Positions 1 through 26,585 of a DNA stretch of 48,297 nt are shown one piece after another; positions within the stretch are counted from its first letter, which is position 1, and every line of letters begins with the position of its first letter. Source of the DNA: a virus. A program made the translations under genes and the position numbers. Location: IMG/VR virus record IMGVR_UViG_3300005613_002601, positions 1-48,297 of that record; one strand, 5' to 3'. Under the pieces are notes generated by a model, which saw nothing but the letters and a program-made list of their open reading frames with translations, did no database searches and was not told the origin of the DNA.

Positions 1-149
1 GAAAAGGAGAAATTAAAGATTTTACAGGAATTTCTCAAAAATATGAAAAACCTTTAAATCCTGAAATAATTTTAGATACAGAAAAAGAAACTATAAAACA
101 AAGCACTCAAAAAGTCATAAATTATTTAAAAGAAAAGGATTTAATTTAA
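1..149 (+). CDS. cysC: Adenylylsulfate (APS) kinase, C-terminal end (partial)
   Basis: An open frame runs from base 3 to a TAA at 147-149 and encodes 48 residues containing GEIKDFTGIS, then YEKPLNPEIILDT, and ending YLKEKDLI. In the APS kinase (CysC) family the C-terminus has the same order: GEIK-FTGI, Y-x-P-x-NPE, a predicted strand, then a final helix. The family phosphorylates adenylylsulfate with ATP to make PAPS, the universal sulfate donor. The catalytic P-loop part lies upstream of the window and cannot be checked. Its TAA overlaps the ATG of the first sulfotransferase (TAATG), so donor synthesis and sulfate transfer look translationally coupled. Confidence 0.82.
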   Translation, partial: KGEIKDFTGISQKYEKPLNPEIILDTEKETIKQSTQKVINYLKEKDLI

Positions 150-718
150 TGTTCATATCTCCGAAATTTAAACTGTTATTTATACATATCCCTAAGACCG
201 CAGGATATAGTATAGAAGAAATGATTCAAGTTCAAGACCCCAACGCTTTTGAAACAAAATATACTCATGATTCTGTAGTTAATAATTGGAAAACTATTGA
301 AAAATATAAAGAATATTATAAATTTACTGTAGTTAGAAATTCTTGGCAATTATGTGCTTCATGTTATAGATTTGAATGTAAAGGAGTTAGATGGAAAGCT
401 AATAATAAAACTTTTAAAGAATGGTTTATATGGAAAGTTAATAATAAAGAACCTAATCATCATCCATTTCCTAATCAATTAGATTATATAACAAAAGATG
501 GAAAAATTATAGTAGATAAAATTATTAGATATGAAGAGTTAGAAAAAGGGCTTAGAGAATTATGTAAAGAAGTAGGTCTGGAGTTTAAATTAAATAAAAC
601 TGCTCATTATTATGGAGATTATGATTGGAGAAATTTTTATTCTGATATAAAAGATATAAATTTAATAGAAACTCAATGTAGAAATGATATAATATATTTT
701 GGATGGAATTTCGAATAA
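149..718 (+). CDS. PAPS-dependent sulfotransferase (Sulfotransfer_2-like)
   Basis: A 189-residue protein. Residues 13-21 (HIPKTAGYS) match the 5'-phosphosulfate-binding loop of the Sulfotransfer_2 family, usually HIPKTAGTS. VVRNSWQLCAS at 61-71 fits the 3'-phosphate-binding strand and helix. The C-terminal Y-x-DYDWRNFY segment followed by IIYFGWNF resembles the closing motif of this family. The protein is expected to move sulfate from PAPS to a sugar hydroxyl or amine. AAGGA lies about nine bases before the start. It directly follows the APS kinase and overlaps a second, different sulfotransferase. Family assignment is good; the acceptor is unknown. Confidence 0.82.
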   Translation: MFISPKFKLLFIHIPKTAGYSIEEMIQVQDPNAFETKYTHDSVVNNWKTIEKYKEYYKFTVVRNSWQLCASCYRFECKGVRWKANNKTFKEWFIWKVNNKEPNHHPFPNQLDYITKDGKIIVDKIIRYEELEKGLRELCKEVGLEFKLNKTAHYYGDYDWRNFYSDIKDINLIETQCRNDIIYFGWNFE

Positions 719-1473
719 TGAAATTAATATTACCAGATTTTATAATAATAGGAGCAATGAAAGCAGGGACTACAGGATTATTTTGGACTTTATGTGAAGA
801 ACATCCAAATATTGCTACTCCTAAAATAAAGGAATTAACTTTTTTTGATAATCATTGGAAGAAAAATTTAAATTGGTATGCTAAACATTTTGAACACGTT
901 AAAGAAGGACAAATTATAGGCGAAAGTAGTCCTAGTTACATGATACGTCCTTATGCTTTAGAAAGAATGAAAAGAATATTACCTGGAGCTAAAATTATAG
1001 TAATGTTAAGAAATCCAGTAGAAAGGTCTTTTTCTCAATTTAAACATTATATAAAAAATAGTAGAAGATTTAAACATTGTATAGGATTAACAGAAAACTT
1101 TGAAGAATTCCTTGAAAAATATGCTAAACCTCCTTATGATGAAAGGTTACATTGGATGGGATTAGGTATATTAGAACGTAGTAAATATTTACCTCAGCTT
1201 AAAGAATTATTTAAATATTATAATGAAAAACAAGTTTTAATTATTAAAAGCGAAGATTATTTTAAAAATCCTTTAGGTATATGCAATATGGTTTGTAGTT
1301 TTTTAGAAATACCTCCGTTAAGAAAGATTAAAAAAGTAAGAAATTATAATAAATCTATTTTAAATATAAAATTAAAATCAGAAACTAAAAATAAATTAAA
1401 AAAATATTTTGCTCCATTTAATAAACAACTTTATAAATATCTACATAGGAATTTCGGATGGGAAAAAGAATAA
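718..1473 (+). CDS. Sulfotransferase, heparan-type Sulfotransfer_1 family
   Basis: A 251-residue protein. FIIIGAMKAGTT (residues 8-19) is a clear 5'-phosphosulfate loop and IIVMLRNPVERSFSQ (93-107) a clear 3'-phosphate motif. GESSPSYM near 68-75 is the usual family element between them. The C-terminus holds the late YFKNPLG..CNMVCSFL block. This resembles glycan N- and O-sulfotransferases of the heparan sulfotransferase type. I start it at 718 rather than the in-frame ATG at 703, because 718 gives a TAATG overlap with the previous stop and places the PDFIIIG strand at the N-terminus as usual. It differs from the previous gene in family, so the two probably use different acceptors. Confidence 0.88.
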   Translation: MKLILPDFIIIGAMKAGTTGLFWTLCEEHPNIATPKIKELTFFDNHWKKNLNWYAKHFEHVKEGQIIGESSPSYMIRPYALERMKRILPGAKIIVMLRNPVERSFSQFKHYIKNSRRFKHCIGLTENFEEFLEKYAKPPYDERLHWMGLGILERSKYLPQLKELFKYYNEKQVLIIKSEDYFKNPLGICNMVCSFLEIPPLRKIKKVRNYNKSILNIKLKSETKNKLKKYFAPFNKQLYKYLHRNFGWEKE

Positions 1474-2195
1474 AACCTAATTTTATGATTATCGGAGGAA
1501 TGAGATGTGGTACTACTACATTGTATAAAATATTGGATAGGCATCCAGAAATTTTATTTTCAAGTACAAAAGAACCTCATTTTTTTGATATAACTACAAA
1601 TAGATATAATAAAGGACTCGATTTTTATTATTCTTATTTTAAAGGAGATAAAAAATATAAAGCAATAGGAGAAGCTACAGCTTCATATTTAAGAAAAGCT
1701 AAATTAGTAGCTCCGAGAATTAAAAAATATTTTCCTTACATGAGATTTATAGTAATGTTAAGAAATCCGATAGATAGAAGTTTTTCTCATTTTTATTTTC
1801 ATCAAATGTTTAAGAAAAAGATTAAACAATATAAATGTGTATATAAATCTATAGAAGATATGATTATGAAAACTAATTTAGATAGTACCGTTTTTCAAGA
1901 CAGTATTTATTATAATCAATTAAAAGAATGGTTTAAATATTTTCCTAAAAGTCAATTTTTAGTTGTCAATTCGGAAGAATATTTTAAATATCCTACAAGA
2001 ACGATAAAAAAAATTTGTAATTTTTTAAATATATCCTCTATTATACTAGATAGAAAAAACATTAAACAAAATACTTTAACGAAAAATAGAAAATTAAGAG
2101 AACAAACAAGAGAAAAATTAAAAAAATATTTTAAACCTTATAACGAAAAATTATTTAAATTATTAGGACTAACATTTGATTGGAGGACACAATGA
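1458..2195 (+). CDS. Second Sulfotransfer_1-family sulfotransferase
   Basis: A 245-residue paralogue of the preceding gene. FMIIGGMRCGTT (9-20) is the PAPS loop; KEPHFFD follows at about 38-44; IVMLRNPIDRSFSHF is the 3'-phosphate motif; YFKYPTRTIKKICNFL matches the C-terminal block. Like its neighbour it ends with a YFKPYNEKLFKLLG..FDW motif, so tandem duplication is likely. Its start overlaps the upstream gene by 16 bases, with AGGA about seven bases ahead. The two paralogues have diverged strongly, which suggests different sugar positions or acceptors, but the sequence does not show the substrate. Confidence 0.88.
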   Translation: MGKRIKPNFMIIGGMRCGTTTLYKILDRHPEILFSSTKEPHFFDITTNRYNKGLDFYYSYFKGDKKYKAIGEATASYLRKAKLVAPRIKKYFPYMRFIVMLRNPIDRSFSHFYFHQMFKKKIKQYKCVYKSIEDMIMKTNLDSTVFQDSIYYNQLKEWFKYFPKSQFLVVNSEEYFKYPTRTIKKICNFLNISSIILDRKNIKQNTLTKNRKLREQTREKLKKYFKPYNEKLFKLLGLTFDWRTQ

Positions 2196-2311
2196 GTAAA
2201 CAATTTATAGGTGGAACTATTTTAATAAATATTCAATCGGCATATATTATGTGTCTTTATCCAAACTATGTATTTTGCTCTATGGCACAATTTAATCAAG
2301 GAAAAGGATAA
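2192..2311 (+). CDS. Small unknown protein (39 aa)
   Basis: An ATG overlapping the previous stop (ATGA) follows GGAGG at an ideal distance and opens a 39-codon frame ending at a TAA at 2309-2311. The peptide is MSKQFIGGTILINIQ..., moderately hydrophobic with two cysteines, and has no family I recognise. The strong ribosome binding site and coupling argue that it is translated. It sits between the sulfotransferases and the large glycosyltransferase. Confidence 0.5.
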   Translation: MSKQFIGGTILINIQSAYIMCLYPNYVFCSMAQFNQGKG

Positions 2312-2334
2312 ACAATCGAAATAGGGATATTAAT

Positions 2335-4974
2335 ATGGACAGAAAACTTAATATAGTATATTTTTATAATCGTCCAGGATGGGCATTTGAATTTGAAGCT
2401 ATTAATTACAAAAAATTTAGTTCTCATAATGTCATCATTATGTTAGAAGACGATTTTGACAAAATGCCTTATAATACAGATATAGCGGTATTACCTAGCT
2501 GTTTACATTTTAATTTATTAATGAATAATGAACGTTTAGAAGCTTTAAAACAAAAAAATATAAAATTAGTAGTGCAATGTAATAGCCATAAAGAATTAAT
2601 GTATGATGTCCGAGAAGCTGATATGATAATGGCAAGTTCGTTTAAATTATATAAAGAATTACTCAAAAAATATTCTAAATCAAAAGTAATATATCAAAGA
2701 CATTTTGTAGATACTACTTTTTTTAAACCAGAATATAAATATAATAATTTTACTATAGGTTGGGTAGGAGATTTAAAAAATCCGTTTAAAAGGTCTCATT
2801 TAATAGATAAATTAAAATATCCTGTAAAACTTAAAAACGATTTTAAACAAAGTCAAGAAAAACGAATTCTTCAAAAAGACATGCCAGAATATTATAATAA
2901 TATAGATATATTAATTATTTTGAGTGAATCCGAAGGAACTCCTTATCCACTTTTAGAAGCTTTAAGTTGTGGTAAAATAGTAATATCTACTGATGTAGGT
3001 ATAGTTTCAGAAGTCTTAAATAATTTTTATATTATATCTCAAGGAACTGATGAACAAATCGTAAATTTAATAAATCAAAAATTAGATTTTCTTAAAAAAC
3101 ATAATCCCACTTATATTCAAAAATTGGGAAAAAGAGGTAGAAGATTGATGGAAGAAAAATTCGATTGGAAAAAGCAGGTTCATAAATTAGATAATTTATA
3201 TTTAAAGCTATATAATAAAAAAACTTATATACAAACTTTTTACAGTCCAGAACCCGACCATACTTATTTAAAAAAATTATCTAAACATATTCCTATTAAA
3301 TTTACAAAAAATTTATCTGAAATTAAAAATACTAGTTATCCTGTAATATTATGGAATCCATATGGATATTTAGTTGCTCCTAAGTTACATTGGAAATATG
3401 ACATTTATAATTATAGAAAACGACATACTAAACCTACGTATATATTAGAAAGAGGAGCTTTACCATCCTCTATATTCTTAGATAGATGGGGGTTTTTATC
3501 GGATAGTAAATCTTATGATGAAAAATTATGGAATAAAGAATTATCTAATACTGAAACCGAATTAGTTAAAAATTATATTAAAACTTTTATTTCTGACGAA
3601 TCCACATTAGAACCTCAAGTAAATGGAAGAATATCTCAAGAAGAATTTGATAATAAGTTAAATATAGATAGAAAGAAAAAAATAGTATTTGTACCAATGC
3701 AAGTATGTAAAGATACTGTTATTCAGCTTTATAGCGGATGGATAGGGAAATTAACTAATTTAAAACCTTTATTAGAGCAAATAGCTAATGAAAATAAAGA
3801 TATAACTTTTCTTGTAAAAAACCATCCAGTAGAAAGAGAATTTCAAATGACAGAATCTAAAAATATAAAAATAGTAGATAATTTTCACTATAAAGATTGT
3901 ATAACATATTCGGATACTATTTTAACAATAAATTCTAGTATAGGATTACAAGCATTAATGTGGAGTAAAAACGTAATTGTATTAGGAAATGCTTTTTATG
4001 ATTTTCCCTGTATTACAAAGAAAGCTAATTGCAAAGAAGATATTGTAAGATATATCAAAAATCCTAGAATTCCAGATATGAAAAAAGTTATGAGATTTAT
4101 ATATTATCTGAAATTTATATTTTACACTCATTGTAAAATGGAAAAAACTGGTAATAATTCTAGTAGACCTTTAAGTATGTGTAATATACGATATGAGAAT
4201 AAATATACAGGATATATGGATGGTCAATATAATCCTGAAAAAATATTAAAATTAGAAGAAAAAGAAGAAACTATAAGTGTATTAATTCCTGCTTTTAATA
4301 GAGAAAAATGGATAGTACAATCTTTAGAAAGTATTACTAATCAGACTTATCGTAATTTAGATATTGTTATTTATGATGACGGTAGTACAGATAATACCTT
4401 ACAAATATGTCGAGAATTAGCTGAACATGATGATAGAATTAGAATTATAGAAGGAAAAATAAATAAAGGAGTAGCTGAAGCTAGAAATCAATTATTAAAA
4501 GCTTGTAAGACGAAATATGCGGTATGGCATGATTCTGATGATTTCTCAAATATTAAACGTATAGAATTACAATATAATGAAATGAGAAAGAAAGAACGTC
4601 TTATCTTTGGTACATGGGATAATTTAGCTTATCATCCTGGAGAATGGGAAAAAGAACCTCAAATCCAGACTAGACCTAAACCACGTCCTAAAGGATTTGC
4701 TACTCTAATGTTTCCAGTTAGAAAAGATATAACTTTTGACCCTGATAAAAAGTTAGGAGGAGAAGATTGGGATTGGATAGAACGTATGAGAAGACATTAT
4801 GATGAAATATTAATTCCAGAAAGGGTCTATCTAATTAATTTTCATCTTGATAAAATAGGGCAGTGGAAAAAGGTATTACAACAAATGCCAGAAATAGATA
4901 TGGCTAAAATGAGTTATAAAGAAATGCAAGACTTATATCGGAAAAAAACAGGAAAGGATATAGTTGATGGGTAA
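2335..4974 (+). CDS. Three-domain glycosyltransferase (GT4-like, KpsC/S-like, GT2)
   Basis: An 879-residue protein with three recognisable parts. Residues 1 to about 300 look like a GT-B glycosyltransferase of group 1 (GT4): GWVGDLKNPFKR near 141 and SESEGTPYPLLEALSCG near 198, the usual nucleotide-sugar-binding block. Residues about 330-600 resemble capsule-synthesis (KpsC/KpsS-type) transferases: KIVFVPMQV near 449, KNHPVERE near 495, NSSIGLQALMW near 533 and VLGNAFYDFP near 548. Residues about 645-879 are a GT-A fold GT2 enzyme: ISVLIPAFNRE, DDGSTDNT, NKGVAEARN and HDSDD near 731. It probably assembles several linkages of one glycan. The KpsC-like call is the least certain. Confidence 0.8.
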   Translation: MDRKLNIVYFYNRPGWAFEFEAINYKKFSSHNVIIMLEDDFDKMPYNTDIAVLPSCLHFNLLMNNERLEALKQKNIKLVVQCNSHKELMYDVREADMIMASSFKLYKELLKKYSKSKVIYQRHFVDTTFFKPEYKYNNFTIGWVGDLKNPFKRSHLIDKLKYPVKLKNDFKQSQEKRILQKDMPEYYNNIDILIILSESEGTPYPLLEALSCGKIVISTDVGIVSEVLNNFYIISQGTDEQIVNLINQKLDFLKKHNPTYIQKLGKRGRRLMEEKFDWKKQVHKLDNLYLKLYNKKTYIQTFYSPEPDHTYLKKLSKHIPIKFTKNLSEIKNTSYPVILWNPYGYLVAPKLHWKYDIYNYRKRHTKPTYILERGALPSSIFLDRWGFLSDSKSYDEKLWNKELSNTETELVKNYIKTFISDESTLEPQVNGRISQEEFDNKLNIDRKKKIVFVPMQVCKDTVIQLYSGWIGKLTNLKPLLEQIANENKDITFLVKNHPVEREFQMTESKNIKIVDNFHYKDCITYSDTILTINSSIGLQALMWSKNVIVLGNAFYDFPCITKKANCKEDIVRYIKNPRIPDMKKVMRFIYYLKFIFYTHCKMEKTGNNSSRPLSMCNIRYENKYTGYMDGQYNPEKILKLEEKEETISVLIPAFNREKWIVQSLESITNQTYRNLDIVIYDDGSTDNTLQICRELAEHDDRIRIIEGKINKGVAEARNQLLKACKTKYAVWHDSDDFSNIKRIELQYNEMRKKERLIFGTWDNLAYHPGEWEKEPQIQTRPKPRPKGFATLMFPVRKDITFDPDKKLGGEDWDWIERMRRHYDEILIPERVYLINFHLDKIGQWKKVLQQMPEIDMAKMSYKEMQDLYRKKTGKDIVDG

Positions 4975-5593
4975 TCCTATTTATATTTCCTATGCAACTA
5001 AAGATACTCCCTACGTAGACGAAATGAAAACCCATTTACTTCCTACATTAAAACATTTTGGATTAGAATATAATATAGAATACCCCGAAGATAAAGGTAC
5101 TTGGCTACAAAATACAGGATATAAAATGGAATTTATATTAAAAATGTTAAAAAAACATAAGCGACCTATCATTTTTTTGGACGCAGATGCCGAAATATGG
5201 CAATATCCAGAATTATTTGATAATATTCCTTTGGTATTCGATATAGCGGTTCATTATTTATCTTGGGGATGGGTATGGCATAAAAATAGAGAACATAAAC
5301 GGAGAGACCTTTTATCAGGTACTATGTATATAAATTATAATGAAAAGACTGTAAAATTCGTAGAAGACTGTATTAAAGAAGTAAAATCTAATCCTCATCA
5401 ATGGGAACAGAAATCTATACAAAAAGTATTAGAACATCATCATGACATAATTACCTATTCTTTACCTTTTTCATATATTACGTTTCCTAATTATAAAGGA
5501 GAAATACCGACTCATGTTATAAAAGAAGAAGAGGTAGTAATATTTCATACACAGGCTAGTCGAAAACTAAAAAATAGGAGTAATTGGAAATGA
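4967..5593 (+). CDS. Nucleotide-sugar transferase-like protein with DXD motif
   Basis: A 208-residue protein. IIFLDADAEIWQYPELF near residue 66 carries a DXD-type metal and nucleotide-sugar site. LLSGTMYIN and the C-terminal HTQASR fit a GT-A fold of the Nucleotid_trans/GT77 type. The ATG at 4967 has AAGGA eight bases upstream and overlaps the previous stop, so I prefer it to a TTG one codon earlier. It probably adds a further sugar to the glycan built by the preceding enzyme. The exact family and sugar are unknown. Confidence 0.62.
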   Translation: MGNPIYISYATKDTPYVDEMKTHLLPTLKHFGLEYNIEYPEDKGTWLQNTGYKMEFILKMLKKHKRPIIFLDADAEIWQYPELFDNIPLVFDIAVHYLSWGWVWHKNREHKRRDLLSGTMYINYNEKTVKFVEDCIKEVKSNPHQWEQKSIQKVLEHHHDIITYSLPFSYITFPNYKGEIPTHVIKEEEVVIFHTQASRKLKNRSNWK

Positions 5594-6108
5594 AAAAATT
5601 TATATCATTTATATTAGGGATAGTAGGAGGATTATTAGGAGCGTATGGAGGAGCTTCAGGTACTAATAAAAATTGGAGACGATTGGGTATTCCTATATTA
5701 ATTACTATAATCGCTTTAATTGTAATTAAACATTGGTTAGTTTTAATTTTGATGGCTTTAATCGGAGTATTATGTTTAGGTTATGGAATTCCAGACGTTA
5801 CCGACTCAGGGTCTCCATTGGGTAGATTTTATTATAAACTAACTAAAGGAAATTATATTTTAACTAATATATTGACTAGAGGTACTATAGGATATTTAGC
5901 TTCTTTAGTATTATTAATAATTCCTATTTTAAAAGGAAATTGGTATTTATATGCTCTTTCTAGTTTTTCAATTATTTTTATTTATTGTTATTATAGTTGG
6001 AAAGATATTGGTTCTTTTAAATTTTTAGGTAAATGGCTTACAAAATCAGAATTTGTCACTTATTTTACTTTAACTTTAGGAACTATGCTTCTTATATTTA
6101 TAGGATAA
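5590..6108 (+). CDS. Multi-pass membrane protein
   Basis: A 172-residue hydrophobic protein with about five predicted membrane segments: FISFILGIVGGLLGAYGG at the N-terminus, a long double segment around residues 33-67, and two or three further ones to the end. The start at 5590 forms an ATGA overlap with the transferase stop, with AGGAG about ten bases upstream; an alternative ATG lies at 5584. I do not recognise a family. Its place among glycan enzymes suggests a membrane step such as anchoring the glycosylation complex, but that is inference from position only. Confidence 0.6.
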   Translation: MKKFISFILGIVGGLLGAYGGASGTNKNWRRLGIPILITIIALIVIKHWLVLILMALIGVLCLGYGIPDVTDSGSPLGRFYYKLTKGNYILTNILTRGTIGYLASLVLLIIPILKGNWYLYALSSFSIIFIYCYYSWKDIGSFKFLGKWLTKSEFVTYFTLTLGTMLLIFIG

Positions 6109-6110
6109 TT

Positions 6111-6872
6111 ATGAAAAGACAAATTATACTTTTAGGTGGAGGATATTCTATTAAAGAAGGTATAGATAAAGGATTATGGACTAAAATAAAAGATAAATTT
6201 GTTATAGGTACTAATTATAGTTATAATCATTTTAAAAATTCTACTATTCAATGTTTTGTGGATAACGATTTTTATAATAAAAATATAAAAGATTTAACAG
6301 AATTAGATTTGATAATAGGTAATAAAAAACCTTTAAAACAAAAATTAAATAATACTATTTTACTTCCGTCAGTTGCTAAATATTATAGAGATATTCAACA
6401 TGGGATTTATAAAAGTAGTTTAGTTGGACTTTTTTCTTTAAGTTTAGCTATTTATTTAAGTCAACCTGGAGATGAAATATTTATTTTAGGGCACGATTAT
6501 GGAGAATATCGTAATAGTAATTATGAAAAAATGGCTACAAATCGAAATGACTTAAAAAATTGGACAGTTAAAGATAAAAAGAATCGAGCCTTAACTCATT
6601 ATTACCAAGAAGAAAATAAAATAAAACATAGAGGTATTGCTAAAATATCTTATTATAATCAAAGAGGAAGAGCCGAGAAAGATTATAGTTGTTATAAAGA
6701 TATAAAAGATATAAAAATATATAATGTATCATTAGTAAGTAAAATACCAGAAAGTATTTTTCCTAAAATAAGCTATGATGAATTTTTTAAAAAATTAGAT
6801 AATAAATGTTATAGTCAAGATGAATTACGTAAAGAAATCAAAAATAAGTTAAAATGGGTTAAAAACGATTAA
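6111..6872 (+). CDS. DUF115/GT42-like protein, possible glycan-modifying enzyme
   Basis: A 253-residue protein. The N-terminus IILLGGGYSIKEGID and the segment LVGLFSLSLAIYLSQPGDEIFILGHDYGEYRNS have the layout of DUF115-type proteins and of GT42 sialyltransferase-like folds: a glycine-rich first strand with a GPSL-like turn, then a helix plus a strand ending in a G-x-D/H motif. I start it at 6111, where AGGA sits five bases upstream and the glycine-rich strand is N-terminal; an earlier in-frame ATG at 6033 lies inside the previous gene. It is the last enzyme-like gene of the glycan cassette. The function is tentative. Confidence 0.5.
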   Translation: MKRQIILLGGGYSIKEGIDKGLWTKIKDKFVIGTNYSYNHFKNSTIQCFVDNDFYNKNIKDLTELDLIIGNKKPLKQKLNNTILLPSVAKYYRDIQHGIYKSSLVGLFSLSLAIYLSQPGDEIFILGHDYGEYRNSNYEKMATNRNDLKNWTVKDKKNRALTHYYQEENKIKHRGIAKISYYNQRGRAEKDYSCYKDIKDIKIYNVSLVSKIPESIFPKISYDEFFKKLDNKCYSQDELRKEIKNKLKWVKND

Positions 6873-7118: not shown

Positions 7119-7230
7119 ATATAAAGAAATAACTCTATGTCCCCACTGTTATTGTATGACTAAAACGAAAAATGGCTATTGTAGTAAATGTTATAGGGAA
7201 AAAGATAAAGAGGAGGAAGATAATGAGTAA
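7111..7230 (+). CDS. Mini zinc-ribbon protein (39 aa)
   Basis: An ATG overlapping the end of the preceding gene opens a 39-codon frame: MGKYKEITLCPHCYCMTKT then NGYCSKCYREKDKEEEDNE. Two CxxC pairs separated by 11 residues form a rubredoxin-type zinc knuckle. GCTTATAGGGAAA upstream gives a weak GGGA ribosome site. Its stop overlaps the start of the intein-containing gene. Function unknown; zinc knuckles of this type recur across this genome. Confidence 0.55.
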   Translation: MGKYKEITLCPHCYCMTKTKNGYCSKCYREKDKEEEDNE

Positions 7231-8842
7231 AAATGTAAAAGAAATGTTTAAAGATATGAATGGGGAAATTAAAAAAGAACGTAATAAATATCCTATTAGA
7301 TATTTTATAACCAATTTTTATTATAGAATAATAAGATTTTTCGAAGATATTCCATTAAAAATAAAAACATTTTTTCAACGAGGAAAAAGAGGGTGGGCTA
7401 ATAGCGATACTTGGTGCTATTCAGCAGATACAGAAATATTGACGGAGGAGGGGTGGAAATATTTTAAAGATTTAAGCAAAACAGAAAAGGTATTAACTAT
7501 AAATCCATTTACTGATACTATCGAATATCAAGTAATTACTAATTTTATACGAAATAAATATAAAGGTAATATGATTTCGTTTAAAAATAAGACATTTGAT
7601 TTGGTAGTAACACCAAATCATAATTTATATTTAGGGAATAATGAATTTATTAGAGCTGATGAAGTAAAACCATATTCAAGCAAAAAAATTAAATGTACGG
7701 GATATAACTGGATAGGTCATGAAGAAGAATATTTTATTTTGCCTTCGGTTAGAGATGAAAAAGTTAAATTTACTTCTAATGAGATATTAGATTTATTTAA
7801 TTCTGGATTAAATAATGTAGAGGTTTCTAAAAAACTTAAATGTTCAATAAGCGTAGTTAAAAGTGTTAAGTATAACAGAAGAATATTAAATGGTTATTTA
7901 CCTGAAATTCAAATTAAAATGGATGATTGGTTAGCATTTTTAGGAATTTATATTGCCGAAGGTTGGACAAATGGTAATTGCGTAAATATTTCTCAGACAA
8001 ATTCATGCTATAGACAGGAAATCGAAAATTTGTTAAACAGATTACCTTTTAGATTCAGCAAAAATGATACTGGGTTTAATATATATAATAAAGTATTAGG
8101 TACTTATTTAAATTCTATAGGTAAAGCTAATGATAAGTTCATTCCTAGAATATTTTTAAATTTATCTAAGAGACAGTTAAAAATTTTATTAACATGGTAT
8201 TTAAAAGGAGACGGATATAAACAACAGAATGTTTGGAAAAGCAAGACAATATCAAAAAAATTAGCGAACGATTTACAAGAGATTTATTTTAAATTAGGAG
8301 TTGAAGCCTCAATTCATTTTTATACAAATGAACACGACGGATATTTTGAAATATCCGAACGTATTGCCAAATTTAGATGGTTTAATACCATGAAAAAAGA
8401 ATTAATAGACTATGATGATTATATTTATTGTGTATCAGTTCCAAATAGAGTGCTGTATGTGAGAAGGAACGGGCTCCCTACTGTTTGTGGAAATAGTTTT
8501 GATTATTATTTAGCAAAAAATATTGTAGAAGGATTAAAATATTTAAAAAAATCTCAAAGTGGACATCCTGGTTATTATTCTTTTGAAGAATGGAATTCTA
8601 TTTTAGACCATATTATTTGGACATTTAAAATTGCTATAAATATTACAGAAGGAAATGTACTATATATTCCGATTAAAGATTGGACAGAGGAAAAATATAA
8701 AGAAATACAAGAAACGTGTAACGATATTAATATTCAATTTTCAAATATACCCCCCATGAGAGTTTTAACAAAAGAAGAAACAAAAAAATTTGAAAAAGGA
8801 TTTGATTTATTTAAAGACAACTTTTTCTCATTTTGGGATTAA
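7223..8842 (+). CDS. Conserved phage protein interrupted by an in-frame intein
   Basis: The precursor is 539 residues. Residues 1-64 and 425-539 are the host protein (179 residues after splicing) and 65-424 are an intein. The joined host protein has RGWANSDTW-SFDYYLAKNIVEGLKYL then EEWNSILDHIIWTFK, matching a widespread but uncharacterised family of small phage proteins with the pattern G-W/Y-S-x-x-D-x-W-x-x-D-x-Y-x-A. The start at 7223 follows AGGAGGA at an ideal distance; an earlier ATG at 7172 would overlap the zinc-ribbon gene. The junction lies in the most conserved part of the family, as is usual for inteins. Its role in the phage is unknown. Confidence 0.8.
   Translation: MSKNVKEMFKDMNGEIKKERNKYPIRYFITNFYYRIIRFFEDIPLKIKTFFQRGKRGWANSDTWCYSADTEILTEEGWKYFKDLSKTEKVLTINPFTDTIEYQVITNFIRNKYKGNMISFKNKTFDLVVTPNHNLYLGNNEFIRADEVKPYSSKKIKCTGYNWIGHEEEYFILPSVRDEKVKFTSNEILDLFNSGLNNVEVSKKLKCSISVVKSVKYNRRILNGYLPEIQIKMDDWLAFLGIYIAEGWTNGNCVNISQTNSCYRQEIENLLNRLPFRFSKNDTGFNIYNKVLGTYLNSIGKANDKFIPRIFLNLSKRQLKILLTWYLKGDGYKQQNVWKSKTISKKLANDLQEIYFKLGVEASIHFYTNEHDGYFEISERIAKFRWFNTMKKELIDYDDYIYCVSVPNRVLYVRRNGLPTVCGNSFDYYLAKNIVEGLKYLKKSQSGHPGYYSFEEWNSILDHIIWTFKIAINITEGNVLYIPIKDWTEEKYKEIQETCNDINIQFSNIPPMRVLTKEETKKFEKGFDLFKDNFFSFWD
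7415..8494 (+). other. Intein with LAGLIDADG homing endonuclease and HTH region
   Basis: The first residue is Cys65 (CYSADTEILTEEGWK, block A). TPNH at 130-133 is block B with its catalytic His. A helix-turn-helix-like segment spans about 185-220 (NEILDLFNSG..EVSKKLKCSISVVKS). LAFLGIYIAEG at 237-247 and LLTWYLKGDG near 322-331 are the two LAGLIDADG motifs. YCVSVPNRVLYVRRNG and LPTVCGN (blocks F and G) end at Asn424, followed by Ser425 as the +1 nucleophile. The penultimate residue is Gly instead of the usual His; I recall CGN-S endings in other phage inteins, so splicing is still plausible. At 360 residues it is a full-size, apparently intact element. Confidence 0.88.
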
Positions 8843-8845
8843 ATT

Positions 8846-9340
8846 ATGAAAACTGGAGATATACTTTTAGTACATTCTAAATTTGACCCTATAGCGTGGT
8901 TGATTCGTAAATATACTAGTTCATATTGGAATCATGTAGCTTGGGCTATAGATAAAGATAATTTTATAGAGGCTAGAGGTACTGAAATAGGAAGAGTGTC
9001 TCGTACTAAATATTTAAATTGGTTATATAATGTCAAATTAATTAGATTAAAAAATATTTCTGAAACCGAATTAAAAGAAGCTCTTAACTATATATCGCAA
9101 TTTAAAAGAAAAAGAAGATATATAGATTATTTAAAACTTATATTTAAAATATTTATTTCTAATTGTGGTTCGTTTGTATGCGAATTAACTTGTAGTAATT
9201 TAATTGGAAGAGGACTTGAAAGTATTAATTATTGGGATAAAGGAAAGGAAATATATTCTATAACTCCGAGAGATATTTCAGAATTAAAAAGTAAAGATGT
9301 TAGCGATGAATTAAATTATTATATATTAGAAAAAGATTAA
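8846..9340 (+). CDS. Permuted papain-like (NlpC/P60 or YiiX-type) amidase
   Basis: A 164-residue protein. The N-terminal GDILLV (4-9) precedes H30 in SSYWNHVAWAID, then IEARG at 41-45. The candidate nucleophile region is NCGSFVCELTC at 106-116. Histidine before cysteine, with a leading GDI motif, is the permuted NlpC/P60 (YiiX/LRAT-like) arrangement. Members hydrolyse peptidoglycan peptides or other amide and acyl bonds. No signal peptide is seen. It is the last gene of the rightward block, three bases after the intein gene, and faces the late operon tail to tail. Which of Cys107, 112 or 116 is catalytic cannot be settled by eye. Confidence 0.65.
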   Translation: MKTGDILLVHSKFDPIAWLIRKYTSSYWNHVAWAIDKDNFIEARGTEIGRVSRTKYLNWLYNVKLIRLKNISETELKEALNYISQFKRKRRYIDYLKLIFKIFISNCGSFVCELTCSNLIGRGLESINYWDKGKEIYSITPRDISELKSKDVSDELNYYILEKD

Positions 9341-15495: not shown

Positions 15496-16164
15496 TTAAT
15501 TATAAGTATATCTCACTACTAATACAAATTCTTCTACGCTAGGTGTCGAATAATCTTGAGGTATAACTAACTTAATATTAGCATATAATTCTTGAGTAGA
15601 TTGTCCGCTAGGAACATCTCCTAAAGCTCCATTTCCATTATTAAGTTGTAATACTCTAGAAGCTCCATCTCCTGCAATAGCTTGACCAGCCCAACTAGCT
15701 CCTGGTAAAGAATCAGTGGTACATACCACTTTAACAAAAGAATCGGCAGGAGTACCATTACCTAATACATGTTTATCATAACTATTATGATTCGAATCAT
15801 CCCAAGCCTCTAATTGAGGTTCTGAAGCAGTTGCTCCATCAAACGAAAAAGCGAATACATAACGTTTATTTTCTCCCATACCTTTAACTAAATGAGTATA
15901 ATAAGAACCTCCTACATCATGACTATAGTCCATAAGAAGGCATTTATCTACTGTTTTATCTGCATCTTCGTCTATAATGGTAGAAGCTTCATTTAGTTCT
16001 TCTTCAGTGGGTTCGTGTTCGGCTAAATCTTTAACTGTATCATCTCCATCAGTCCATATTAAATAATCTTGAGATAATTGCATCTGAATATAATTAGCAG
16101 GTGTGGTCTGATAAGACACTGTAGAATCTACATAATTAATTAATACATTCATATTGGTTGCCAT
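15496..16164 (-). CDS. Tail structural protein (222 aa)
   Basis: A 222-residue acidic protein with beta-rich C-terminus (ANIKLVIPQDYSTPSVEEFVLVVRYTYN). Its ribosome site, AAGGAGTTAATAT, lies inside the 3' end of the upstream HNH gene, so the homing gene was inserted flush against this gene. It begins MATNMNVLINYVDSTVSY. A phage tail or tail-tip structural role is inferred from position between distal tail protein and hub genes; no family is recognised. Confidence 0.55.
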   Translation of the reverse strand: MATNMNVLINYVDSTVSYQTTPANYIQMQLSQDYLIWTDGDDTVKDLAEHEPTEEELNEASTIIDEDADKTVDKCLLMDYSHDVGGSYYTHLVKGMGENKRYVFAFSFDGATASEPQLEAWDDSNHNSYDKHVLGNGTPADSFVKVVCTTDSLPGASWAGQAIAGDGASRVLQLNNGNGALGDVPSGQSTQELYANIKLVIPQDYSTPSVEEFVLVVRYTYN

Positions 16165-16873
16165 ATATTAACTCCTTTATTCTTTTTTGAAAATAATTTT
16201 TCCAATATTTCTTATTTCTATTTACCTTATTATTACAATTATTACATAGAGTAATTAAATTATCTTCTTTGCAATTTTGTTTATCATAATTTATATGATG
16301 AACGTCTAAAGCTTTATTTTTTAATTTTAAATGCTCTTCTTCTATGATTCCGCACTTTTGACATTCGAAATTATCTCGTTTACGAATTTTAAATTTCAAT
16401 TTATTATTAAATTCAAGAGGATATGGAAAATAACTACGCCCATCTATAAAATTATGATTTAATTTTCCTAATTGTTTACAAGAAGAGCATCTTTCGGCAT
16501 CTGGATGAATTTTTTTACCACAATTTATACATATTTTCTTTTTTAGATATTTTCCGTCTTTAAATCTTGGATGATTCTTACCTTTCATATTTAAAGGATT
16601 TCCGAAATTAGGATTATTCTTTCCTCTCATTTTTTCACTATGTTTTTTACTTGAGCATTTCTTGCATCTAGTTCCTTTACAATAAACTTGGTTATTACAT
16701 TCTTTTTCTATACAATATCTTTTTCCAGAATATTTTCCATATTTATAATTAGGATTATTTTTAGGGTCTTTATAACGTTCTTTACATGAACAACTTTTAC
16801 ATAACCCATTACCATATTTAACAGAATTATATGTTACTTTTTTACCACATATTTTACAATAATATTTTTTCAT
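16136..16873 (-). CDS. HNH homing endonuclease with zinc-finger/NUMOD3-like array
   Basis: A 245-residue protein. The N-terminal 150 residues carry repeated CxxC knuckles (CKICGKK, GNGLCKSCSCK, CIEKEC, CKGTRCKKC, CINCGKKIHPDAERCSSC) and GKNNPNF / GKNHPRF segments of the NUMOD3 DNA-binding type. The catalytic region has RDNFECQKCG, then LDVHHINYDKQNCKEDNLITLCNNCNNKVN, a complete HNH site with two CxxC pairs. It lies between two tail genes and overlaps the downstream start by 29 bases, as expected for a free-standing homing endonuclease. It looks intact. Confidence 0.85.
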   Translation of the reverse strand: MKKYYCKICGKKVTYNSVKYGNGLCKSCSCKERYKDPKNNPNYKYGKYSGKRYCIEKECNNQVYCKGTRCKKCSSKKHSEKMRGKNNPNFGNPLNMKGKNHPRFKDGKYLKKKICINCGKKIHPDAERCSSCKQLGKLNHNFIDGRSYFPYPLEFNNKLKFKIRKRDNFECQKCGIIEEEHLKLKNKALDVHHINYDKQNCKEDNLITLCNNCNNKVNRNKKYWKNYFQKRIKELIYGNQYECIN

Positions 16874-17293: not shown

Positions 17294-17890
17294 TTAAATA
17301 ACCTCCATAGTCTTTAATTCTTTTTTAGTTAAAACTAAAATGTTAATATTAGAAAATAACTTTTTAAATTTTTTTAATTTATTTTTAAATAATGGACTAA
17401 AATAACCTTTAATTTCAATATATTTATCTTCTACTGGTAAATAAAAATCAGGGGTGTAAGTAGTATTTTTTAAATCAAATCTTCTTGATTCATATAACCA
17501 TTTAATATTATTTTTATCCAAATATTTAGCAAATTTTATTTCCCAAGATGACCTCATTGTTATATTTTTATATTTTCCAAACTTAGGTTTAGGAATTCTT
17601 CCATAAAAATAATTTTTCTTACCTCTCATTATTTTTGCGTGATATTTATATCTACAAATTTTACATCTTTTTGTTCTAGAATTTATCTTTATATTACAAT
17701 CAATACATCTATAAATAAAAGCTTTACTTCTTTTTCCGTGTTTAAAATTAGGGTTATTTTTACCTAACATTCTTTTACTATGTTTTGGACGAATTTTATT
17801 AATATGAGAACAATGACCACACAATCCACTGCCATATATAAAAGTTACCTTACATATTTTATTAAAACATTTCTTACATTTATAACTCAT
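17294..17890 (-). CDS. Homing endonuclease, PD-(D/E)XK nuclease with zinc-finger/NUMOD3 front
   Basis: A 198-residue protein. Its front has CKKCFNKICK, GSGLCGHC, GKNNPNFKHG and CIDCNIKINSRTKRCKICR, the same zinc-knuckle and NUMOD3-like module as the nearby HNH enzyme. The C-terminal half has MRSSWEIKFAKYLDKNNIKW, then YTPDFYLPVEDKYIEIKGY: a Glu helix, a PD motif and E-x-K, the PD-(D/E)XK nuclease core. It sits between the tape measure and distal tail genes, with short junctions on both sides. Likely a free-standing homing endonuclease. Confidence 0.78.
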   Translation of the reverse strand: MSYKCKKCFNKICKVTFIYGSGLCGHCSHINKIRPKHSKRMLGKNNPNFKHGKRSKAFIYRCIDCNIKINSRTKRCKICRYKYHAKIMRGKKNYFYGRIPKPKFGKYKNITMRSSWEIKFAKYLDKNNIKWLYESRRFDLKNTTYTPDFYLPVEDKYIEIKGYFSPLFKNKLKKFKKLFSNINILVLTKKELKTMEVI

Positions 17891-17900
17891 ACATTTCTCC

Positions 17901-20402
17901 TTATATCAAATTCCTAATACGTTCTATGAATTTACGTTGAAAATCTTCATTACTTAATAAAGCTTCTTTTAAAGTTTCTCCAGCTTTAGTGGCTACTTCA
18001 TCTAAAGCATTTTCTGGCAAATTAATTTCTATATTTTCTATTTGAGTTTTAAGGTCGAAATTTTGAGTATTTTTTACGAAAGGAGCATTTATATCTCTAG
18101 TTCCCATTCTAGCTCCTGCTGTACCAAATATATTTTCCCATTCTTTTCTAAAATTATCTAAAGCTAGTCTAGCTCTACCTTCCCAAGTATCCCAAAATGG
18201 ATTTACTTTAGTAGGATTAAGTAATTCTTCTATTTGTTCTTTAGGAGTATTTGCAACTCCTGGAATAGCCAAAGCAGGTAAATCGAACATATCTCTTATA
18301 ACTTTTCCAACTGCTCTTTGACCTTCTTCTGAAAAATGTTGAAAATATTCGTCTATTATTCTTTGGTCAAACATATCTCTCTCATAAGCCACCGCCAAAG
18401 CTTCTGGAGATAATCTTCTTAATTCCATTAATCTACGCAGTCTAGTTCTTTCATTTTCATCCGATTCTTTATATTTCATCGCCAAATCAGTAGCAATGTC
18501 TAGTTCTTTTTGTTTTTCCTTAATTAATGCTATTTGTTGTTGTCTTCTTAAATCTGATAATTGAAGTAAATATTGAGCATCTCCGATTTGGTCTTTATCC
18601 ACTTTAAGTTGATGAATTTTTATTTCTAATATTTGAGATTCCGAAGCTCCCATTGTTTTTAATAAATCCATCATATTGTTACGTAAATTATCTGTCATTT
18701 CTTTTCTATATTTAGCTTCTGCTTTTATTAAATCCAACCCTAATTTTAATCTTTCTAAACGAGCTTCTTCTTCAGTCATAAATCCTTCTAATATATCTAA
18801 TTGTTGTAGTCGGAATTTAACTATATCTTTTTCATGAACTCCAGATATTTTTAATAATTCAACTTGATTTTTTAATTCTACTTCTCGTTCTTTATAACTG
18901 TCTGTATTCTTTCCTATAGATTTACTCATATCTTTTTCTGTTTTTTCTATTTCTTTTCTTAATTCCGCTTCTTTTTTAGTAGATTTTTCTGTTTCTAACT
19001 GCATCATCATATAATCGTCTAAAGAAGTTAATTTTATATTTATATCGGGAGCTTCAAAAGCGTTTAATGGGTCTATTAATGCTTTTCCTGCCTGAGACGC
19101 CATTTTTTCATACATTACACTTACTTCTCCTAATCTCCATGATAAAAAACCAAATATATCTCCTACTGCTCTAACTTTTTTTCTTATACTTATTAACCAA
19201 TCATTTATATCTTCCAATACATGAGCAAAAGATTGTCCCGAAGTAGCTCCTGTAATAAAGTCATTGCCTAATACTGCAAGTACATTTTTCATTCTTTCAG
19301 CTTGTGCAGTAACAGTTCTCATTCGAATTTTTTGCATTTTATCTGCAAATCCTTCTGCATTATTTCCAGCATTTTTTAAAGAATCATTCCATTCATCAAA
19401 ACTATCAATTAATAATCTAACAGCTACTGCTCCTCTAGTAGCAAATACTTCTTGAATTTGTCTACTTTGTTTTTCTGTAAGTCCGACAGATTTATCTAGA
19501 GTATTATTTATTTGTCTAATTACATTTATAAAACTAATAGGTTTATTAGGGTCAAAAGTTATTCCGAATATTTGAGCTAATTTACTTGAATTTTTACTTA
19601 ATTGTAATATAGTTCTTCCTGTTAAACGACCTGCTCTTCCTGCTCGTAATAATCTAGTATTTAAAAAACCTAATGTAGTAATAACTTCTATAAAACTATC
19701 TCCCAAACCAGATACATAAGGGGCAAATTTTTCATAAGAAGCTGTTAATTCTTGAAGCTGAACGTCTTGCGTAGCGTAGGTATAAGCAAGTCCATCTGCT
19801 ATTTCTTGAAATACTTCAGCATCGCTTGTTCCTTCTTTAAATTGATTTCTCATAGTATTAAAGATACCAGCAACTGCTCTAGCAGTATCTTGAGCATTAT
19901 TCATAGTACCTACCATGAGAGCAACTGTAGGAGTAAAAGCGGATAATGCTTGTTCTGTACTTAAATTAGAAGTTCTTAAAAAGTAAAAAGCTTCTGCTAA
20001 TTCTTTTATACTTTTTCGTGAATTTACTGCGGTATCTAAGATTACAGATTTTATTCTTACCATATCTCTATCAATCTCAGAAGAAGTTCCAGCCATAACT
20101 GTCTGTATTCTTGTCATTCCTTCTTCCAAATCTAAATTAGCTCTAAATACATCTCCTATAGTACGTATTAATCCCATAAAAATAGTTCTAAGTAATAACC
20201 AAGCAGGAATAGTTAATAAAGCTCTTTTTCCTATATCAGTTAAAGCTTGTCCGAAGGTTTTAGTTCCTTTAATTAATTCAGGATGAAGCTTTTTTTGTTT
20301 ATTTAAAGCACTTTGCATCCGAGTTAAACCTGTAATAACAGCTTTATCTCCTTGCAATGTCGCTAAAAATGATAATAAGTATTGTTCTGCATTAACAGCC
20401 AT
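17901..20402 (-). CDS. Tail tape measure protein
   Basis: An 833-residue protein. Residues 61-80 form a hydrophobic segment (ALLTIPAWLLLRTIFMGLIR). The block MTRIQTVMAGTSSEIDRD...LDTAVNSRKSIKELAEAFYFLRTSNLSTEQALSAF...NNAQDTARAVAGIFNTM is typical of phage tape measure proteins (TMP core). Long helical, charged sequence follows (ELRKEIEKTEKDMSKSIGKN). It lies directly after the overlapping chaperone pair, the canonical position. At about 1.5 angstroms per residue it would set a tail near 125 nm, a rule-of-thumb estimate. Helical tape measures of this size fit a siphovirus. Confidence 0.88.
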   Translation of the reverse strand: MAVNAEQYLLSFLATLQGDKAVITGLTRMQSALNKQKKLHPELIKGTKTFGQALTDIGKRALLTIPAWLLLRTIFMGLIRTIGDVFRANLDLEEGMTRIQTVMAGTSSEIDRDMVRIKSVILDTAVNSRKSIKELAEAFYFLRTSNLSTEQALSAFTPTVALMVGTMNNAQDTARAVAGIFNTMRNQFKEGTSDAEVFQEIADGLAYTYATQDVQLQELTASYEKFAPYVSGLGDSFIEVITTLGFLNTRLLRAGRAGRLTGRTILQLSKNSSKLAQIFGITFDPNKPISFINVIRQINNTLDKSVGLTEKQSRQIQEVFATRGAVAVRLLIDSFDEWNDSLKNAGNNAEGFADKMQKIRMRTVTAQAERMKNVLAVLGNDFITGATSGQSFAHVLEDINDWLISIRKKVRAVGDIFGFLSWRLGEVSVMYEKMASQAGKALIDPLNAFEAPDINIKLTSLDDYMMMQLETEKSTKKEAELRKEIEKTEKDMSKSIGKNTDSYKEREVELKNQVELLKISGVHEKDIVKFRLQQLDILEGFMTEEEARLERLKLGLDLIKAEAKYRKEMTDNLRNNMMDLLKTMGASESQILEIKIHQLKVDKDQIGDAQYLLQLSDLRRQQQIALIKEKQKELDIATDLAMKYKESDENERTRLRRLMELRRLSPEALAVAYERDMFDQRIIDEYFQHFSEEGQRAVGKVIRDMFDLPALAIPGVANTPKEQIEELLNPTKVNPFWDTWEGRARLALDNFRKEWENIFGTAGARMGTRDINAPFVKNTQNFDLKTQIENIEINLPENALDEVATKAGETLKEALLSNEDFQRKFIERIRNLI

Positions 20403-24914: not shown

Positions 24915-26585
24915 TTACCTCCATGCTACCGAAGTACCATGTATTTTCATATTTTTACTATTATGAGTAGTTAATTTATATTTAATACTAGTACCTCCTC
25001 CAACTGCTGACTCCGTAAAATCTATATCTCCCTTTAAAATTTTAGTATTATTATCATAATCTCCTTCGTCCGTTAAAGTAGCTAAAGCCCAAGTAGAACC
25101 TCCATCTTTTGATAACCATGCTTTTAAATCTGTATTTAAAGTGACACTATTTATTTCTTCCATTAAAATTACAAATTTAGCTTCATCAGGTTCTTCTTCA
25201 GCAGTTTGAGCTTCGGATAATAAAGTCATTCCTGTTGTTGGAGAACCTGCATATATTTCATCTATATAAATAGTATTAGCAGAATCTGCATTTACAATTT
25301 CAAATTCTATTTTATCTATAGCATCTTTATCATTATTAGAAATTCCAGAAATATCTAATTCTTTAGATTCCCAAGTATTAGCAGAATTTATAGTAATATT
25401 TTCCTCTATTATCGGAGGATTATAAGATGATGTAGGTACTGATATAGTATCTGTTTTTCCTACATTTGGAGAAGCAGAAAATACATTAGAATGACATATT
25501 CTAATTTCATCCATATGACCATCAAAATATTGACTTCCTGCACCATTAGTTCCTATATATAAAGTTCCAGCAATAGTCCCTGTACTACTATCTTGTAAAT
25601 AACTATATTGAGTTCCATCAACGTATATAGCATATTCATCTCCTACTTTACACATAGCCACATGATGCCAATTAGTATCTGTTATTTCTCCTCCGAAACT
25701 AACATCAATTATAGTTGAACCGCTATAAGTAAATTTTATATCTATTCCATTTCCATCTGAATGTCGTATATACCATTGATTACTACCATCTTGTCTCTGT
25801 TGAATATAAGGTTCGCTTTCCGAATGATTAGTATGTTTAACCCAAAAATCTATAGTCCAATCATCAGAATTTGAACCAAATATATCCCAATCATTTGAAT
25901 CCGCTAAAGAAAGATAATCGCTATCTCCATCAAATTCAACAGCACCTGTTCCCCATTTATAAGAAGAAGTATCTACTTGAACAGTTCCATTAGCAGTTAC
26001 TGTATGATTACTTTGAGAAGAATCTCGAAAAACAGTAGAACCATCTACTCCATCACAATGTAATAATAATTTTACATCTGAATTTGGCTGTTCAGAAAAT
26101 ATAATTTTAAAATTACTTCCTGTTCTCGTAGCTCTAGCTTTCAATTTAATAGTATTCTTATTAGATAAATCAATAGAACTACCTAAAATATTAATTAATT
26201 TGTCATATAATGAATTTGTTTGAGTAGCTGTCATTTTTAAAGAATAAGAACCTTGTTCTTTAATAGTATCCTCTGAATAAGATTGGAAATTTCCACTATC
26301 ACTAGCTACATATGCAGTTTGAGCCTCTCCGTCTGTAGCATATTCCATATTATCTATAGTAGTAGTATCTCCTTCTCCTAAACTATAATAATCGTCAGTA
26401 GAATTATAGAGTTCATTTATACTATTATCGGTGTCTATACCTGTTTCATCTTCATATTCATCTACAAGTAAATCTGCCATATTTTGAACAGATATATTAT
26501 CTCCTACTGCTATTCTAAAAGCATTAATAGCATCGTTCATTATTAAATTGTCGTAATCGTGTCCTTCTATTTTTCCTATTCTCAT
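24915..26585 (-). CDS. LamG/concanavalin-like lectin virion protein
   Basis: A 556-residue protein. Residues about 170-380 form a LamG-type jelly roll: LLLHCDGVDGSTVFRDSS, WGTGAVEFDGDSDYLSL, WTIDFWVKH, NWHHVAMCKVGDEYAIYVDGTQ, LYIGTNGAG and HMDEIRI are its classical blocks. Such domains bind glycans and are frequent in phage virion appendages. The N-terminus (MRIGKIEGHDYDNLIMNDAINAFRIAVGDNISVQNM) may attach to the particle. It lies next to the long fibre gene, so the two may form one appendage. It may decorate head, neck or tail. Confidence 0.75.
   Translation of the reverse strand: MRIGKIEGHDYDNLIMNDAINAFRIAVGDNISVQNMADLLVDEYEDETGIDTDNSINELYNSTDDYYSLGEGDTTTIDNMEYATDGEAQTAYVASDSGNFQSYSEDTIKEQGSYSLKMTATQTNSLYDKLINILGSSIDLSNKNTIKLKARATRTGSNFKIIFSEQPNSDVKLLLHCDGVDGSTVFRDSSQSNHTVTANGTVQVDTSSYKWGTGAVEFDGDSDYLSLADSNDWDIFGSNSDDWTIDFWVKHTNHSESEPYIQQRQDGSNQWYIRHSDGNGIDIKFTYSGSTIIDVSFGGEITDTNWHHVAMCKVGDEYAIYVDGTQYSYLQDSSTGTIAGTLYIGTNGAGSQYFDGHMDEIRICHSNVFSASPNVGKTDTISVPTSSYNPPIIEENITINSANTWESKELDISGISNNDKDAIDKIEFEIVNADSANTIYIDEIYAGSPTTGMTLLSEAQTAEEEPDEAKFVILMEEINSVTLNTDLKAWLSKDGGSTWALATLTDEGDYDNNTKILKGDIDFTESAVGGGTSIKYKLTTHNSKNMKIHGTSVAWR

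Follow-up and report, generated by a model that had tools for sequence, protein, structure and literature searches.

The window analysed here, the entire IMG/VR virus record IMGVR_UViG_3300005613_002601, is a linear fragment of 48,297 bp whose first 9.3 kb carry + strand genes that converge on a virion operon encoded on the - strand. At its left end lies a putative sulfation cassette, in which the end of an adenosine 5'-phosphosulfate (APS) kinase gene is followed by genes for three sulfotransferases dependent on 3'-phosphoadenosine 5'-phosphosulfate (PAPS) and for glycosyltransferases. An earlier note on this DNA had described a tightly packed rightward run, and the run is real: the genes overlap or abut on the + strand, with a sole sizeable gap of 139 bp at 2196-2334. 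The genes for making the sulfate donor and for transferring sulfate and sugar are as follows.

3..146, + strand: APS kinase (CysC), C-terminal 48 aa, covering PF01583 positions 128-152, the remainder lying beyond the contig edge
149..718, + strand: Sulfotransfer_2-type sulfotransferase (PF03567, 6.4e-6, above cut-off), with the 5'-phosphosulfate-binding motif FIHIPKTAG and the 3'-phosphate-binding motif VVRNSWQLCAS
703..1473, + strand: Sulfotransfer_1 / HS3ST-like sulfotransferase (PF00685, 1.1e-16), with IIGAMKAGTT and LRNPVERSFSQF
1458..2195, + strand: Sulfotransfer_1 / HS3ST-like sulfotransferase (PF00685, 2.4e-21), with IIGGMRCGTT, LRNPIDRSFSHF and KEPHFFD
2335..4974, + strand: three-domain glycosyltransferase, a single 879-aa protein (GT1/GT4-type, Capsule_synth and GT2)
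4964..5593, + strand: probable GT-A-type glycosyltransferase, Nucleotid_trans-like (PF03407, 20 bits, below the cut-off of 22)

The 1-149 frame, which the earlier note took for the C-terminus of CysC, matches PF01583 above the cut-off (26.8 bits against 21.1; E 3.9e-7), and 3-146 reads KGEIKDFTGISQKYEKPLNPE, the CysC lid with the substrate-lid motif KGEIKDFTG..YEKPLNPE. The three sulfotransferases of two families that the note had named are also present (PF03567 at 149-718, PF00685 at 703-1473 and 1458-2195), all above Pfam cut-offs, and their PAPS-binding residues can be read intact, as 5'-phosphosulfate and 3'-phosphate binding motifs, in each of the three sequences. The first matches phrog_3347 (‘galactose-3-O-sulfotransferase’, 2.5e-9). 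The second, with a candidate catalytic Glu in KELTFFD, had no close relatives found among isolated phages. The best PDB match of the third is heparan sulfate 3-O-sulfotransferase 1 (HS3ST1; 3.2e-25), in which the Glu of EVHFFD is the catalytic base; in the solved structures (3uan, 1vkj) both this Glu and the PAPS-binding motifs align with 1458-2195, which differs from that enzyme in being viral.

Where the note had counted several sugar-transferring enzymes, there is one clear three-domain protein, one probable enzyme (4964-5593) and one unproven. The domains of the 2335-4974 protein are PF00534 (9e-15; GT4-type, aa 180-250), PF05159 (7e-20; Capsule_synth, 428-569) and PF00535 (1e-33; GT2, 648-781), the last matching a GtrB-like PHROG. 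A GtrB-like GT2 domain and phage-borne glycan modification are features shared with the O-antigen conversion cassettes (gtrABC) of phages, from which the window differs in having no match to the GtrA flippase and in its additional sulfate-donor synthesis and sulfotransferases.

The cassette recurs in related viruses, its gene order being kept in one relative and most of its content in a more distant one, so that the note's picture of donor-making, sulfate-transferring and sugar-transferring genes beside a virion operon holds beyond the window; none of the outcomes that the note had named as contrary to it came about. The closer relative, G001 (IMG/VR 3300018080_002664, 49 kb), is syntenic with the window over nearly its whole length. 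Its cassette proteins share 53-78% amino-acid identity with those of the window (78% for 703-1473, 60% for 1458-2195, 71% for 2335-4974 and 63% for 4964-5593), and ratios of nonsynonymous to synonymous substitution rates (dN/dS) of 0.16-0.34 across the cassette genes (0.16, 0.27 and 0.24 for the first three of these) indicate that the genes are maintained by purifying selection. The third sulfotransferase of G001 (L002:3125-3694) is of a different type from the window's, and the transferase set is therefore exchangeable. The more distant relative, G005 (3300033153_010326, 104 kb), carries at the corresponding position, between its replication genes and virion operon, a cassette version of about 16 kb, with genes for CysC, a nucleotidyltransferase (NT), Sulfotransfer_2 (adjoining CysC and 37% identical to 149-718), a Sulfotransfer_3-like protein, a GT-A-like protein (45% identical to 4964-5593) and homologues of the 6111-6872 and C92 genes described below. 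Two further genes in this glycan and sulfation island (G005 79375-82255) resemble B12-binding radical S-adenosylmethionine enzymes.

An exact search for contigs continuing the window's left end gave no match; because the contig stops short of NT, this gene is known from relatives, and we infer that the window's own genome has one upstream as well. G001 reaches approximately 950 bp further left, where a full-length CysC orthologue (L002:945-1655; TIGR00455, 202 bits against a cut-off of 138.7) is preceded by an NT of 129 aa with an HxGH motif. This CysC has the P-loop GLPCSGKST together with LDGDVVR and FVSPYR, whose equivalents in the window fall beyond the contig end. Of the two things that the earlier note had sought to the left, the P-loop is thus found in G001, and an ATP sulfurylase of known type is not. 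The G001 kinase also bears two N-terminal membrane-type segments, and such a hydrophobic pair occurs in further viral APS kinases (L005, L006, L008 and L009), which suggests, as far as sequence can, a membrane-anchored synthesis of PAPS.

Canonical ATP sulfurylase (PF01747) was found in none of 14 CysC-bearing viral records, which may be incomplete, and the CysD/PAPS-reductase family (PF01507) is absent from both the window and G001; NT was therefore considered as the filler of this gap. We put at roughly three in four the probability that NT is a minimal ATP sulfurylase derived from nicotinamide mononucleotide (NMN) adenylyltransferases (NMNATs), and that NT and CysC together supply PAPS to the sulfotransferases of the cassette. 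NT, which the close relative encodes just past the point corresponding to the window's left end, would transfer AMP from ATP onto sulfate to yield APS, CysC would phosphorylate APS to PAPS, the three sulfotransferases would place the sulfuryl group on glycan hydroxyls, and the co-encoded glycosyltransferases would build or extend the glycan acceptor. Families, motifs, conservation, linkage, fusions and complementary distribution were established by sequence analysis, structure prediction and genomic context, and the case for NT forming APS is drawn from its fusion and linkage to CysC, its partition with known enzymes and its neighbours.

A search of viral contigs with a profile of ten NTs gave 532 relatives. 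The best 80 were examined, and 61 loci were left after removal of near-duplicates. A CysC-like kinase lies within 5 kb of NT in 58 of these 61, 17 of them as fusions in both orders (NT-CysC and CysC-NT), and a sulfotransferase is present at at least 20. In the 126 viral neighbour genes that were sampled, sulfotransferases outnumber every other recognised family, and TauE/SafE transporters occur twice. In one locus (L010) CysC is preceded by a permease of the PHO4 family, which includes sulfate permeases. Among isolated phages, DLP_6, Suzuki, Bhz60, Clavibacter phage 33 and AhaSv have a short kinase-NT gene or an NT match, beside which lies a Sulfotransfer_4 gene in Bhz60 (8e-6) and, below cut-off, in AhaSv (9e-4). 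Four CysC matches in INPHARED (LR756500, Pseudomonas phage Y4, MT839805 and MT838634) have no adjoining NT among the open reading frames (ORFs) listed and seem to be fragments of host DNA or to belong to other contexts. APS formation would be unfavourable without removal of pyrophosphate, which an occasional HAD partner could provide: a HAD domain is fused to NT (L005/L033) and to CysC (L098), each in a single lineage. A HAD phosphohydrolase as obligate partner was rejected, being near NT in only 8 of the 61 loci, and its action as a pyrophosphatase or as a phosphatase of 3'-phosphoadenosine 5'-phosphate is only an idea.

The same neighbourhoods bear on the product of the pair. CysC-like kinases exist outside sulfate activation, as with Cj1415, the capsule phosphoramidate kinase of Campylobacter also annotated as CysC, and a different activated group might be the product of NT and its kinase, for example the CDP-glutamine/phosphoramidate donor of that capsule. 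Some partner kinases do match NCBIfam PRK05541; against this, TIGR00455 outscores PRK05541 for most of those tested (202 against 93 bits for the CysC of G001), the exceptions being L098 (slightly) and L087 (weakly), and the neighbours most often recognised are PAPS-dependent sulfotransferases. We regard another activated group as most improbable.

The lineage of NT is that of the NMNATs. Its predicted model (predicted local distance difference test, pLDDT, 92) has archaeal NMNATs and not ATP sulfurylases as nearest solved folds, and in profile comparison it matches Patescibacteria NMNATs with 99.8% probability and a deletion of 26 residues in NT. Both NMNAT motifs of adenylyl transfer, HxGH and ISGT..R, are kept (H21, H24, S109 and R114 in 59 of 59 diverse members), as they are in the archaeal-type enzyme NadM (4yp7, 1m8j), whose fold NT shares. 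The deletion removes the segment with NxxxLW..HV, which carries nicotinamide contacts in solved NMNATs and which Patescibacteria NMNATs keep; the C-terminal helices are gone too, and Arg43 and G89-R90-x-x-G93, invariant in all 59, are new relative to NMNATs including NadM. NT is thus an NMN-adenylyltransferase descendant minus the nicotinamide-binding segment, in which a smaller acceptor pocket and new arginines would suit an oxyanion acceptor. A tree of the small domain, in which two wrongly cut haloarchaeal rows are to be disregarded, recovers NT as monophyletic with respect to NMNATs at moderate support (0.73), with viral and Patescibacteria members intermixed. The AlphaFold model of an NT-CysC fusion is of moderate quality (pLDDT 75). 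That NT might be a canonical ATP sulfurylase is ruled out by sequence and fold.

This ancestry also invites the reading that NT and kinase are a pair serving NAD salvage, as an NMN adenylyltransferase and a kinase of ribosylnicotinamide type, and that the sulfotransferases beside them are incidental. Archaeal NMNATs are the nearest relatives by both profile and fold, phages do carry NMNATs, and NadR joins the same two fold types. Such a pair is nevertheless very unlikely, since NT lacks the NMNAT segment of about 26 residues that bears the conserved NxxxLW, forms a clade separate from co-occurring NMNATs (at the moderate support given above), partitions with canonical ATP sulfurylases and adjoins sulfotransferases, and since curated models, in several cases above cut-off, identify its partner as an APS kinase and not a ribosylnicotinamide kinase.

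The partition with known enzymes is seen in cellular genomes. Among 84,980 species genomes (GTDB), scanned with one strict peptide pattern and hence undercounted, NT matches comprise 13 loci, all in Patescibacteria and 12 of them NT-CysC fusions. A strong APS kinase is present in 17 of 333 Patescibacteria genomes, where it is accompanied by a fused canonical ATP sulfurylase in six, by CysD with a CysN-CysC fusion in two and by a fused or adjacent NT in eight, with one orphan; the three APS-forming types do not overlap in these 17 genomes (chance for eight canonical against eight NT, 4e-4). NT thus occurs in 8 of the 17 genomes with an APS kinase and in none of the 316 others (p 7e-12), and Sulfotransfer_3 genes occur in 4 of 8 genomes with NT and in 17 of 325 others (p 7e-4). 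Sulfotransferases, a sulfatase and a PAPS reductase are among the Patescibacteria neighbours of NT. In a Daviesbacteria genome a 677-aa protein with a PAPS-reductase domain (L116:610-2640) is encoded about 2 kb upstream of the NT-CysC fusion, and PAPS made there may feed reduction too. Matches to most of the fusion were found in nine haloarchaeal plasmids, and in all eight examined an annotated sulfotransferase lies directly upstream of cysC, with at most a small ORF between; the cysC gene is a CysC-NT fusion in the five aligned, and a YqcI/YcgG gene follows in seven of the eight. This operon (L189-L196) spans six genera (Haloprofundus, Haladaptatus, Natrinema, Natronococcus, Halostagnicola and Halocatena); a report on the sulfotransferases of Halobacterium salinarum does not mention a source of PAPS.

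On this evidence it is quite probable that NT represents a third, minimal class of ATP sulfurylase, an NMNAT-derived domain of about 120 aa that stands alone or fused to CysC in either order and supplies PAPS for dedicated sulfotransferases, that the class spans hundreds of viruses, Patescibacteria and haloarchaea, and that it makes the viral cassettes independent of host sulfate assimilation. Viruses might instead draw on APS of the host, CysC and the sulfotransferases being a partial auxiliary set to which NT is unrelated; many viral auxiliary genes are indeed single pathway steps, and the window itself holds no APS-forming gene. We consider this quite unlikely, because NT is fused to CysC in both domain orders across viruses, Patescibacteria and haloarchaea, and because canonical ATP sulfurylase is absent from most sampled Patescibacteria. 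The NT relatives also suggest that the virus probably infects tiny groundwater bacteria of the Patescibacteria, a host that would fit the auxiliary class reported in passages of PMC12285232.

As to what is sulfated, the capsule-type glycosyltransferases and the resemblance of the transferases to glycan sulfotransferases make a glycan the likely acceptor, and the sulfated glycan would most likely lie on the surface of the infected host or on the virion; the biological purpose of the cassette is likewise presumed. Further genes of the G005 island read like surface-polysaccharide enzymes, by sequence reading and not by profile match. Sulfotransferase-based modification of DNA bases has been predicted computationally for some phages (Iyer et al. 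2013, as cited in a passage of PMC10829341), and the window's sulfotransferases might similarly produce sulfated hypermodified bases. In Bhz60 a DNA methyltransferase and NADAR are encoded close to the kinase-NT gene, and in DLP_6 an Fe(II) oxygenase and a DNA ligase are. The cassettes of the window and G001, by contrast, pair with capsule-type glycosyltransferases and show no base-hydroxylating gene, the Sulfotransfer_1 pair resembles heparan-sulfate glycan sulfotransferases, and the G005 island points to surface polysaccharide. Base sulfation is thus unlikely, a candidate still because the genome is incomplete.

Several observations weigh against a sulfation cassette with NT as its ATP sulfurylase. 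The window holds neither NT nor the CysC P-loop. The NT seed alignment was drawn mostly from CysC neighbours, so that the linkage figures apply to the 80 closest of 532 viral matches; some partner kinases are short-lid and score under the APS-kinase cut-off, that of L087 looks nearer to adenylate/CMP kinase, and NT and CysC are 2-13 kb apart in some relatives (L010, G005). One of the 13 NT-bearing GTDB genomes (G026, a metagenome-assembled genome) also has a canonical ATP sulfurylase. Homology between NT and ATP sulfurylases stops at the superfamily fold, and sulfate as the NT acceptor is for this reason inferred from context; the glycan target is drawn from the neighbouring glycosyltransferases only, and the roles of all parts are read from sequence, structure prediction and context.

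If NT acts as proposed, the nearest functional counterparts are the bifunctional PAPS synthases (PAPSS1/2 and the Aquifex SAT/APS kinase, 2gks), with which NT and CysC would share the conversion of ATP and sulfate through APS to PAPS, often on one polypeptide, and whose kinase half is homologous to the CysC partner of NT. They differ in that an NT of the NMNAT lineage of about 115-125 aa replaces the PF01747 catalytic domain, which covers 212 positions and belongs to enzymes 540-630 aa long. CysDN/CysNC is likewise an alternative APS-forming enzyme partnered with CysC, but CysD is PAPS-reductase-like and CysN a GTPase, whereas NT is related to neither and, judged by its gene context, does without a GTPase partner. 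Viral sulfotransferases have been reported as auxiliary genes in glacier-ice phages (PMC8290583) and as a leading auxiliary class in viruses infecting Patescibacteria (PMC12285232), a status that those of the window share; the relevant passages of these two papers describe no donor-synthesis module or cassette. Of the novelty that the earlier note had claimed for the set, the donor module can therefore stand as new and the transferases cannot. Neither an NT-CysC PAPS synthase nor a viral sulfation cassette combining donor synthesis with transfer was found described in the open full-text literature, subscription papers and preprints being outside the scope of the search, and the cassette holds a probable new enzyme class. 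If this is correct, NT is a third, previously unrecognised class for sulfate activation, small enough for viruses and for genome-reduced Patescibacteria that lack known ATP sulfurylases; viruses would be able to bring a complete donor-plus-transfer sulfation system, and the module would serve as a marker for finding sulfated glycans among uncultured bacteria and the viruses that infect them. Its relatives in cultured haloarchaea and in isolated Stenotrophomonas and Xanthomonas phages make the proposal directly testable.

The remaining features of the cassette and its surroundings are as follows.

5584..6108, + strand: small multi-span membrane protein, with no family match, absent from the G001 cassette
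6111..6872, + strand: conserved cassette protein (MKRQIILLGGGYS...), its start probably at 6111, corrected from 6033
8846..9340, + strand: Peptidase_C92/NlpC-like protein (weak PF05708), with homologues within the G001 and G005 cassettes
17901..20402, - strand: tape measure protein of the virion operon

The 6111-6872 protein is kept in G001 and G005 and has no noteworthy match to a family in Pfam, NCBIfam or PDB. A 39-codon ORF at 2193-2311, preceded by a GGAGG-like site, occupies the 139-bp gap noted above. The gene at 7172-8842, which separates the cassette from the C92-like gene, encodes a phage protein split by a LAGLIDADG-bearing intein (...WCYSADTEI...VCGNSFDYYLAK) and is absent from G001. 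Three HNH/endonuclease-like genes in the virion operon (16136-16873, 17294-17890 and 29066-29764), kin to one in the G005 cassette and absent at those places in G001, look like homing endonucleases. The head module is highly diverged in this virus group. A 563-aa protein with a C-terminal ChaB domain (39272-40963) has no PHROG match, and a 656-aa virion-operon protein (34362-36332) has several zinc-ribbon-like segments. A Laminin_G_3 lectin-like domain and a right-handed beta-helix occur in the virion-operon proteins at 24915-26585 and 36349-39024, which are candidate receptor-binding or glycan-degrading proteins.

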